A DNA stretch of 64,000 bases, taken from the NCBI RefSeq assembly GCF_000710615.1, contig NZ_JDTH01000001.1, positions 558,001-622,000 of the forward strand, read 5' to 3'. The position numbers and the translations under genes are program-made. Below, piece by piece: positions 9,700 to 53,824 of this stretch (within the stretch, counting starts at the first letter, position 1; every line of letters begins with the position of its first letter). Under the pieces are notes generated by a model, which had not been told where the DNA came from, did no database searches, and saw nothing but the letters and a program-made list of their open reading frames with translations. This stretch comes from Haladaptatus cibarius D43 (GTDB taxonomy: Archaea; Halobacteriota; Halobacteria; Halobacteriales; Haladaptataceae).

Positions 9700-10292
9700 G
9701 CTAGGTAATCGCGACTCCAATCAAAACCGCGACTTGGCGAGACAAGCAGTATGCGGTTTATATCTGTGTTGGTCTGTCGATAGCAAGTCACGACAACACA
9801 TAACTGCTATCGTATTGGTTACGTGAATACGCTTTCTGTCTCCGCGGAAGTCACGACTACAGTGAAACCGCATCGAGCCGCATACCTCCCCAGCCGATTC
9901 CTTCACTCGCATTCGCTCGTTTCAGTCATCCCTCGCGCGGGCGACTTCAGTCGCCTTCACGCGCCATGCGGTTTGTCCTTACTTCGAAATCTTCGCAACC
10001 ACTGTGGCGCGTGCGTCGGGAGGCCTGCGGGACGCCCGCAGGCCTCCTGATTACCGCGCGAGGGGTGACCGAGCGACGAAGGAGCGAAGGAGTCGGTTGG
10101 GGAGGTGTGTGGCAGACGAGATTTCTGCGAAATCTCGCTGGCGAACGGCAAAGCCGTGAGCGCGGTGCGGGGCGGTTGCGGTTCCACTGGAGTCGTGATT
10201 ACCTAGCGCCATTCTCGTAAAAAGAGTAAACCTAGCGCAGTTGTGGAACTGAATGATTTTCGTACAACGAACACTGCAGAAAACGATTCGTG
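9700..10292. repeat. Gene-free region with family A repeats in both orientations
   Basis: No credible gene. A minus-oriented copy of repeat family A lies at about 9775-9915 (CAAGTCACGACAACA; CTCCCCAGCCGATTCCTTCAC) and a plus-oriented copy at about 10060-10205 (AGGAGTCGGTTGGGGAGGTG; GCGGGGCGGTTGCGGTTCC; TGGAGTCGTGATTACC). The two copies face away from each other around a strong hairpin at 10019-10047. The arrangement resembles a non-autonomous inverted-repeat element, but no terminal duplications were established. Confidence 0.6.
10019..10047. repeat. Perfect 13-bp stem hairpin
   Basis: GGAGGCCTGCGGG at 10019-10031 pairs perfectly with CCCGCAGGCCTCC at 10035-10047 around a 3-base loop. It sits between two oppositely oriented family A repeats. 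There is no T-run after it, so it is not an obvious archaeal terminator. Confidence 0.7.
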
Positions 10293-51594: not shown

Positions 51595-51668
51595 GGGCCA
51601 ATAGCTCAGTTAGGTTGAGCGCTCGGCTGATAACCGGGAGGTCCGCGGTTCAAATCCGCGTTGGCCCA
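51595..51668 (+). tRNA. tRNA-Ile (GAT anticodon)
   Basis: 74 nt. Acceptor GGGCCAA pairs with TTGGCCC plus discriminator A; D-arm GCTCAG...; anticodon stem CTCGG/CCGGG around loop CTGATAA with anticodon GAT; T-arm GCGGTTCAAATCCGC. CCA is not encoded. No intron. Its 3' end is the attachment site of the following integrated element. Confidence 0.97.
51648..51668 (+). repeat. Left attachment repeat (in tRNA-Ile 3' end)
   Basis: 21 bases covering half of the T-arm to the discriminator base of tRNA-Ile (begins GTTCAAATCC, ends GGCCCA). Identical to 53804-53824. Confidence 0.85.
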
Positions 51669-51927
51669 TTTGATTTTGTGTGACATATTAGTTGACGGAA
51701 ACGGATAGTACAAGATCCACAAAGGCCAAATACGCCGTTTCCATTTTCCGCGAAGCGGATTAGACCAATATATCCCAACAGGTAACCCTTTGGAACTGAC
51801 GTGTACCCCGCCTACGTTTTGCACTACACAATAGCCGAAATGCACCCCTTCCATGGAAGCTGTCATGTCATTTTGAGGTAAAAAAATATATGACTTTTGC
51901 GGTAGATAGAGAGGGATTCTTTCCCCA

Positions 51928-52161
51928 ATGGGGGTTACTGAAATTACTTGGTACGATATTACACCGGGGGGTATTACTTCTGTGATATTCGGTGTATGGT
52001 ATTACTTTCCCACCGGGGTTAGTCAACAAGCTTGGAGTACAACCCCCGTTGATATGACTACCTCGACGGGAGTTGTATACAGCGGCCTTGTTGCCCAAGG
52101 CAGTTACTCAACGCTCTTTGTACTATGTACAGTGTGCGTTTCGCAGAAAGTGTTTCCGTAG
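51928..52161 (+). CDS. Possible small protein inside integrated element
   Basis: 77 residues beginning MGVTEITWYDITPGG; aromatic, beta-like, low charge (FGVWYYFPTGV, GSYSTLFVLCTV). No Shine-Dalgarno and no family; a minus-strand frame overlaps. The 51669-52267 interval otherwise holds no recognisable gene, only GC-run-rich sequence. Confidence 0.3.
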   Translation: MGVTEITWYDITPGGITSVIFGVWYYFPTGVSQQAWSTTPVDMTTSTGVVYSGLVAQGSYSTLFVLCTVCVSQKVFP

Positions 52162-52267
52162 AAGTTTCCTCTTACCACTTGGAGGTTTTTCTTCCTGCCT
52201 TAGCTTTAGCTATCGTTGCATATAAATCAGTCGGTGAAAGTGGCGAATAGCCTGACTGTCTACGCGG

Positions 52268-52495
52268 TCACCGGCTGTAGAGAAACGTAGCGACACTTGC
52301 GGCAATGAGAACTACGGCGGTCGCTCCGGTAATCAGTGATGTACTCCCGAATATGGCTAATGAGAGGGCAACAAGAAGCATTGATAAAGAAATTACGTAC
52401 ATTCGATTCCGTTGGTTTCCCAGTTGCTTGCGCGCTATGACAAAGGTTGAACTTGACATGACGAACATTAGTGAGGCGAATGCAAGGTTATCCAT
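52268..52495 (-). CDS. Small three-helix membrane protein
   Basis: 75 residues; hydrophobic segments ~3-20, ~32-48 and ~54-73 (ITGATAVVLIAASVATFLY). Downstream of the Cys-rich exported protein on the same strand (57 bp gap). Its size and location would suit an immunity protein of a halocin, but nothing in the sequence demonstrates this. Confidence 0.6.
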   Translation of the reverse strand: MDNLAFASLMFVMSSSTFVIARKQLGNQRNRMYVISLSMLLVALSLAIFGSTSLITGATAVVLIAASVATFLYSR

Positions 52496-52552
52496 AATTT
52501 GTTATTATTCTCTGTGATTAAAATAATCGCGGGCTATTCACCAGCGTTGAAC

Positions 52553-53041
52553 TTACCAGTCCCACTCTGTAGGAACTACGATGTAATCCTCTACATCAAG
52601 TGACCCACCGGACTCGTCTAATTGGAAGATTGACATAGAGGTACTACCACCGTGTTTGTCTTTGAAAACGTTCCACAAGTTACAGCCTCCCGTTGCAGAA
52701 CCGCACGCGGTGGCAATCTTCACTTCGTCGCCGGGGATTCCGTCAGCCGCGGCAAGTGCCGTAGCAATTCCACACCCTCCGGCAAGAAGTTGGCAATATT
52801 CGTCTTCAGATACGTATCTCCCGACCACGGACGCATTTAGGGTTATGTTTGGAGGAACACCCGCCCCGCCGGTATTACATTCGGTTGTTGCACCTGCTGT
52901 ACAAATGTCCGGAGGGGAGGCTGTTGTTTCGGAACTTGTTGCGTAGCTTGTTACACCAAGACCGACGCCAAGAGAACCAACGGCTTTTACGAAGTGTCTT
53001 CTGTTACTATTCACCGAATCATGTGAGTTTTTGTCACACAT
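52553..53041 (-). CDS. Tat-exported Cys/Gly-rich protein, halocin-like
   Basis: 162 residues. Tat signal NRRHFVKAVGSLGVGLGV, then a mature part with six cysteines in Gly/Ala-rich context: DICTAG, TECNTG, EYCQLLAGGCGIA, TACGSATGGCNLW. A hydrophobic Cys-rich core after a Tat signal is the layout of halocin C8-type archaeal bacteriocins, though the sequence is not recognisably the same. It lies in the AT-rich integrated element. A bacteriocin precursor is inference. Confidence 0.6.
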   Translation of the reverse strand: MCDKNSHDSVNSNRRHFVKAVGSLGVGLGVTSYATSSETTASPPDICTAGATTECNTGGAGVPPNITLNASVVGRYVSEDEYCQLLAGGCGIATALAAADGIPGDEVKIATACGSATGGCNLWNVFKDKHGGSTSMSIFQLDESGGSLDVEDYIVVPTEWDW

Positions 53042-53161
53042 ATTATTGTGTATAACAACTTCACATTTATTGATTTTTGTTGAAAATTTAGATAACAGAA
53101 ACAGAACAACAATAGAGATTATAGCGAGTCTTGACGGTTCTTCTTACTCTCGCTTAGTGTC

Positions 53162-53374
53162 CTAAATGAGTCTACTTCCCCCGTTGTTCCATTTAACGAC
53201 GGTAGGCACGAAGTACCCGCCCCAATCGGTTGAAGCAAGCACTTTGTAGTGTTCTCCCTCCCGGCAGGGCAGTTTCTCGCTCATGACTTCCTCACTGAAG
53301 CCGTGCATGTAGTGGGGGTGACCCAGTACCTCTTTCGCATTGCCAACGCGGTGTTGAGTTTCTTCTTTGTTCAT
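53162..53374 (-). CDS. Hypothetical protein in integrated element
   Basis: 70 residues from the ATG at 53374 (MNKEETQHRVGNAKEVLGHP), whose start overlaps the stop of the integrase fragment (ATGA). Soluble, with conserved-looking HYMHGFSEEVMSEKLPC and a C-terminal WGGYFVPTVVKW. No family recognised. Confidence 0.5.
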   Translation of the reverse strand: MNKEETQHRVGNAKEVLGHPHYMHGFSEEVMSEKLPCREGEHYKVLASTDWGGYFVPTVVKWNNGGSRLI

Positions 53375-53670
53375 AGGCAGTTGGTGTATTCGCATGCTTC
53401 ACACCCAAAGGCGGCAATCGACTCGCAGAACCGAAGGAATACCTTGAAGGTACTCATTTGGGTTTGGAGAGTGACGTTATTCAGCTCACCGTCTTCTTTT
53501 CGCCATTGGCGGTAGTCGAACAAGTGGCGGCCTGATAACTCGCTCATGGCGTCAATATCCTTGACGTTTTGGCACTAGCGGATAAAGTGCTTGAGCCGGT
53601 AGCGGTGTGCTTTTACAGTGGCTTCGCTGTTGTCTTCTTCCTTCTGTTCAAGGTATATTTCTACTGCCAT
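53371..53670 (-). pseudogene. Tyrosine recombinase (integrase) N-terminal fragment with nonsense codon
   Basis: Minus-strand frame from ATG 53670: EIYLEQKEEDNSEATVKAHR then YRLKHFIR, an in-frame TAG at 53575-53577 where the family normally has Trp (FIRWC), then NVKDIDAMSELSGRHLFDYR and VTLQTQMSTFKVFLRFCESI, the haloarchaeal XerC/D-like core-binding domain. The frame ends at 53371 just after this domain; the catalytic Arg/His/Arg/Tyr part is absent. It lies ~135 bp from the right attachment repeat. Confidence 0.75.
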
Positions 53671-53803
53671 ATCCGATGGTATTTTTTTCCAATGTCATTG
53701 GCTCTACCTGTGAGAGCAAGGAGAAGGGAAACCCATCAGTCCGCTTTCATACCGCCGCGAAGCGGTGGTAAGGTGGGTTCACGCGGTAGCCCCGGAACGG
53801 GGC

Positions 53804-53824
53804 GTTCAAATCCGCGTTGGCCCA
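53804..53824 (+). repeat. Right attachment repeat
   Basis: Exact copy of the 21-base tRNA-Ile end at 51648-51668. Preceded by a GCCCCGG/CGGGGC hairpin and not by the rest of the tRNA, so it is an attachment copy and not a second tRNA. Confidence 0.85.

Follow-up and report, generated by a model that had tools for sequence, protein, structure and literature searches.

The tRNA-Ile locus and its 21-bp repeats

The window, the whole 64-kb stretch of Haladaptatus cibarius D43 DNA that was analysed, contains an intact tRNA-Ile(GAT) gene whose last 21 bp, GTTCAAATCCGCGTTGGCCCA, are repeated exactly at a start-to-start distance of 2,156 bp (Table 1). The two copies are the only matches in the window at up to three mismatches and the only copies of the 21-mer in the whole genome; none was expected from 100 dinucleotide shuffles. 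GC content is approximately 0.45–0.50 within the interval and 0.59–0.64 further out, with the right flank reaching only 0.50–0.56 up to position ~54,750. The exact repeat of the tRNA 3′ end, the AT-rich interior and a tyrosine integrase core-binding domain adjoining the right copy had all been named in the original prediction, and all were confirmed. An 11-mer that recurs near both ends, CCGCGAAGCGG, is a possible arm site or a chance match.

Table 1. Features of the window element, followed by capsid genes of small elements in other genomes (positions given within the respective locus).
Feature	Position	Strand	Basis or remark
tRNA-Ile(GAT), attB host gene, intact	51595..51668	+	ARAGORN; Rfam RF00005, 68.3 bits
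attL core, 21 bp, tRNA T-arm and 3′ end	51648..51668	+	Exact repeat; single copy in empty sites
11-mer CCGCGAAGCGG, short inverted repeat, left end	51748..51758	.	Read from sequence; second copy at 53755-53765, right end
77-aa ORF, coding doubtful	51928..52161	+	ORF list; no Pfam or NCBIfam family
75-aa protein, three hydrophobic segments, near-orphan	52268..52495	-	ORF list
162-aa protein, Tat-type signal, cysteine-containing mature part, orphan	52553..53041	-	TIGR01409 at its cut-off
77-aa ORF, orphan, overlaps end of integrase fragment	53162..53395	-	ORF list
SNJ2-type integrase, N-terminal core-binding domain only, 99 codons	53374..53670	-	Pfam Phage_int_SAM_1
In-frame TAG, codon 32, at a Trp conserved in intact relatives	53575..53577	-	Comparison with intact relatives
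Right arm, integrase start to attR	53671..53803	.	Hairpins 53751-53769 and 53789-53803; 55-322 bp in intact relatives
attR core, 21 bp	53804..53824	+	Exact repeat; single copy in empty sites
His1-type capsid gene, G116	L138 14066-14377		PF25665
His1-type capsid gene, G283	L126 13555-13908		PF25665
His1-type capsid gene, G234	L172 ~10048-10245		PF25665

Empty sites in congeners

The tRNA-Ile locus was present in 40 of 40 genomes searched, the window's own genome included. In six congeneric species (G005, G006, G008, G003, G002 and G007) the flanks of the element are collinear on both sides, and the left and right alignments overlap by exactly 21 bp in the subject; in G005, for example, the left alignment runs to 1885 and the right one starts from 1865. 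Each of the six carries a single copy of the 21-mer, as do G001 and G004. The six junctions are the ancestral, unoccupied form of the locus. Since they join across one 21-bp copy, they demonstrate directly that 2,156 bp were inserted site-specifically at the 3′ end of tRNA-Ile and that the tRNA was kept intact. An integrated element had been predicted here, with an empty site to be expected in sister genomes, and both expectations were borne out; the opposite finding, a second repeat copy that is ancestral with no empty form in relatives, is contradicted by the same genomes.

In the present sample, with one genome per species, the insertion is limited to this species. The DNA of the element has no relative in 78 related genomes except for a 43-bp stretch with 81% identity in one of them, and a search for a close full-length relative of the whole element found none.

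The integrase fragment

The Phage_int_SAM_1 match (E 3.7e-8, TAG read through) belongs to an integrase related to SNJ2-type enzymes encoded by betapleolipoviruses and in haloarchaeal chromosomes. Its N-terminal 88 aa are 35–43% identical to the integrases of SNJ2, HRPV9 and HHPV4, and the highest identity among intact chromosomal relatives, 60% over 86 aa, was to that of G139. The window integrase is thus a member of the SNJ2-type family, which is limited to Halobacteria and their elements and whose IntSNJ2 works without its two accessory proteins (PMC8371274). Beyond about codon 88 homology is lost, and a search of the whole element with full-length relatives found no catalytic domain. The integrase is broken, by the TAG at codon 32 and by the missing catalytic domain, and is a remnant rather than an active member of its family; because of these two lesions the element is unable to excise itself. 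The predicted decay of the element was therefore evident in its integrase. The integrase start lies 134 bp from attR (55–322 bp in tRNA-paired relatives). In an integrase tree the 88-aa fragment was too short to be placed and lay outside the well-supported clade of small tRNA-Ile elements described below.

Three other SNJ2-type integrases are encoded in the window's own genome. A site was mapped for one, the nearest relative among them (48%), which is installed in tRNA-Ala with a different core. In this genome tRNA-Ala(GGC) was recorded as holding an apparently intact SNJ2-type element of 6.0 kb, with 28-bp repeats (L149, G000:C2:375460-375705).

Cargo of the element

The 162-aa, 75-aa and right-hand 77-aa ORFs lie on the same strand as the integrase fragment and downstream of it. 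Relatives of the cargo were sought in Pfam, PHROGs, NCBIfam, PADLOC, plasmids, phages, IMG/VR and haloarchaeal genomes, yielding only matches to the Tat signal and one weak partial match to the 75-aa protein (146 genomes). For the 162-aa protein, 292 other haloarchaeal genomes gave signal-peptide matches and no homolog, and no homolog was found among plasmids, phages or IMG/VR. The left-hand 77-aa ORF had a best PHROG match at chance level (E 0.2) and no match in the other elements. Searches of Pfam, PHROGs and NCBIfam found no replication, capsid or other provirus gene in the element, and no match to pleolipovirus spike, membrane or NTPase genes.

Two identities were considered and rejected. 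A halocin-like role for the 162-aa protein, considered from the cysteines of its mature part, found no family match, and a His1-type capsid identity of the 75-aa membrane ORF was unsupported by family searches and by comparison of elements. An AlphaFold2 model of the 162-aa protein alone had a mean pLDDT of 36 and was not used. Since membrane and exported proteins are frequent in small elements of this kind, one might guess by analogy at an envelope-directed role of the cargo, for instance the exclusion of other elements.

Census of SNJ2-type elements

In loci ranked by similarity to the window integrase fragment, and hence not a random sample, repeats of a tRNA 3′ end were sought no further than 500 bp from the start of the integrase. 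This resolved 33 elements, 28 of them with a full-length integrase; two entries, both at L086, are nested in one place. Sizes range from 1,774 to 17,715 bp. In all 33 the integrase start lies 55–322 bp from attR and the tRNA stands at the opposite end, although the search was blind to other geometries.

Nine of the 28 elements with a full-length integrase are only 1.8–3.2 kb long (G221, 1,774 bp; G288, 1,852; G185, 1,937; G167, 2,044; G124, 2,098; G116, 2,623; G076, 2,802; G212, 3,017; G283, 3,141). Five of these mini-elements occupy tRNA-Ile, two tRNA-Lys, one tRNA-Tyr and one tRNA-Arg. tRNA-Ile has been used independently by the five intact mini-elements and by elements of 8.0, 9.1, 9.3 and 17.7 kb. 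The tRNA-Ile mini-elements form one clade (100/100) with the integrase of the 17.7-kb tRNA-Ile element of G237, and other mini-elements lie elsewhere in the tree, so that small size seems to have arisen repeatedly among SNJ2-type elements. No description of the 1.8–3.2-kb class or of its capsid genes was found in the open literature searched, which is weak evidence given incomplete coverage.

The slot between attL and the integrase stop codon holds the cargo, and its content changes completely between elements. G212 and G185 are 90% identical in DNA across the integrase module and ~86% across the left end, but their cargo is unlike, a gene for a 467-aa lipoprotein-like protein in the former and for a 163-aa membrane protein in the latter. 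Likewise, the integrases of G167 and G124 are nearly identical and their cargo is different. G144, tested as an empty site for G212 and G185, and G027, tested for G076, carry other content in the flanks.

Truncated or split integrases were found at L084, L086 and L114. At L086 (YIM A00010), a 2,255-bp element in tRNA-Tyr has an integrase cut near residue 125 and without its catalytic domain; it carries a gene for a 542-aa exported protein and is nested in a 4.7-kb repeat-bounded interval. At L094 (G049), a 4.8-kb SNJ2-type element has three tandem copies of a tRNA-Tyr 3′ end (8121, 8256 and 8382; 126–135 bp apart) at its right end. In three tRNA-Ile mini-elements (L089, L092 and L102) the left end just inside attL resembles the host trailer past attR (64–78% over the compared 140 bp), as if host flank had been captured in earlier excisions; this resemblance is absent from the window element.

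A different arrangement was observed at L097, L098, L099, L030, L031 and L090, where a second copy of the tRNA-Ile 3′ end, 135–159 bp downstream, forms the 3′ strand of a long hairpin. The letters of its internal loop, AGTCGCAG / CCGTC, are conserved, and the inner stems differ yet still pair. The same unit at L074, near an SNJ2-type integrase, has an outer stem matching the 3′ end of tRNA-Phe. Four loci were scanned against Rfam, with no match. The unit was rejected as the origin of the second repeat in the window, the right arm of the window element being without it.

Small elements with a capsid gene

Genes for a His1-type capsid protein (PF25665) were found in two of the mini-elements, those of G116 (2,623 bp; E 3e-32) and G283 (3,141 bp; E 1e-22). 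Over 71 aa, the protein of G116 shares 59% identity with a product annotated as MCP of Halorubrum spindle-shaped virus BLv25. A third capsid gene, in G234, lies within a 3,170-bp interval with exact 32-bp repeats at both sides and an SNJ2-type integrase inside. The gene is rare, since only 2 of 243 haloarchaeal genomes scanned matched PF25665 (G116 and G234); the G283 case was met via its integrase and was not among the matches of that scan. Because all three capsid genes seen sit in small SNJ2-type elements (2.6–3.2 kb), a reading of these elements as satellites or reduced proviruses is suggested by sequence, short of any proof of packaging.

Comparison with known systems

The window element resembles SNJ2-type elements, that is betapleolipovirus SNJ2 and related proviruses (family in PMC8371274), in its integrase family (35–60% over the core-binding domain), its integration at a tRNA 3′ end, its core repeats and its haloarchaeal host. 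SNJ2 itself is a 17-kb virus in which two accessory genes for recombination precede the integrase, whereas the window element has no accessory genes, virion genes or catalytic domain. With the mini-elements it shares size, geometry, few genes, often a small membrane or exported cargo and, in five cases, the same tRNA-Ile; it differs from them in that their integrases are full length and their cargo is unrelated. SSV-type (suicidal) elements also have an archaeal tRNA-targeting tyrosine recombinase, but there integration splits the integrase into two end fragments, while the window element has only an N-terminal fragment, at one end, with no C-terminal counterpart at the opposite end. Neither a Pleolipoviridae provirus nor an SSV-type element is recognisable at the locus, given that it has no pleolipovirus genes and no catalytic-domain fragment.

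pSSVx and pSSVi of Sulfolobus are small satellites of spindle-shaped viruses that are larger than the window element and encode replication proteins. These plasmid-virus satellites are comparable to the capsid-bearing mini-elements, which are likewise small and connected with spindle-shaped viruses; the window element carries neither a capsid gene nor a replication gene.

Origin and fate of the window element

The best reading of the window element is that of an SNJ2-type tRNA-integrating element surviving as an immobilised remnant (probability approximately 0.85). A circular element carrying the 21-bp tRNA-Ile 3′ end as attP would have recombined with the chromosomal tRNA, the reaction being catalysed by its own SNJ2-type tyrosine integrase, and a complete tRNA would have been rebuilt at the left end. 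Insertion itself is documented by the empty sites; the circular intermediate and catalysis by the element's own integrase we infer from the family. The TAG and the loss of the integrase's catalytic domain would have come afterwards. Both lesions are present in the sequence; their timing, after insertion as opposed to arrival in an already defective state, we likewise infer. The element would persist as a fixed island with ORFs for Tat-exported and membrane proteins. This reading is favoured by the exact repeat, the six empty sites, the integrase homology, the common geometry, the independent use of tRNA-Ile by intact relatives, the TAG and the missing catalytic domain; against it stand the position of the fragment outside the tRNA-Ile mini-element clade and the failure to find a close full-length relative.

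The ancestor of this remnant was most likely of the small size class (1.8–3.2 kb, an integrase and one or two cargo genes), or else a larger element reduced by deletion. A mini-element ancestor may have been ~2.9 kb long, the present size plus the missing catalytic domain. The original prediction had taken the unusually small size as a possible sign of deletion, and this argument did not hold as stated: intact elements with a full-length SNJ2-type integrase are equally small, down to 1,774 bp, so size alone is no such sign. A single deletion from approximately integrase codon 88 inward, removing the catalytic domain and most other genes of, for example, a provirus, is nonetheless a serious possibility, somewhat short of even odds. 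It would account for the abrupt end of integrase homology and fits the larger size of most tRNA-paired relatives, the largest of which, also in tRNA-Ile, reaches 17.7 kb, as well as the damaged integrases at three other loci; no replication, capsid or other provirus gene is left, however, the remaining size is that of an intact mini-element and the cargo ORFs are still open.

Reliance on another integrase, also suggested in the original prediction, was unsupported. A functional non-autonomous satellite mobilised in trans would be expected to keep both att sites, and both 21-bp cores are indeed exact in a genome with three further SNJ2-type integrases. Mobilisation in trans lacks support, since tRNA-Ile is not known as the target of any resident integrase: none is installed there, the nearest relative uses tRNA-Ala with its different core, no second integration at tRNA-Ile exists in the genome (only two 21-mers) and no second copy or wider distribution of the element was found. 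Such a satellite is improbable. Far less probable still, to the point of being negligible, is that there is no element and that the second copy is an ancestral tandem tRNA 3′ end. Tandems of this kind, with the second copy 135–159 bp downstream, do occur in haloarchaea (G026, G028, G059, G106, G180 and G279), but the single-copy congeners and the six empty sites contradict this origin, the two copies in the window lie 2,156 bp apart and no hairpin unit like that of the tandem-copy genomes is present in the right arm.

The immobilised remnant is thus an inactive addition to a kind already known, the SNJ2-type integrative elements. Tentatively, and with less than even odds, it could be a dead member of an unnamed class of minimal SNJ2-integrase elements (1.8–3.2 kb) with an exchangeable slot for one or two cargo genes and no replication gene or accessory proteins. 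Helped by viruses, members of this class would move from one haloarchaeon to another, and some of them (G116, G283 and G234) would be capsid-gene-bearing satellites of spindle-shaped haloviruses. Taken alone, the locus is an ordinary fossil of site-specific integration whose limits the empty sites define unusually well; it is of value as a pointer. In the similarity-ranked census, SNJ2-type integrases often belonged to elements that hardly exceed the integrase gene itself in length, and near-identical integrase modules carried wholly different cargo. How elements of one integrase plus one gene spread between cells is the testable question that the mini-elements raise.
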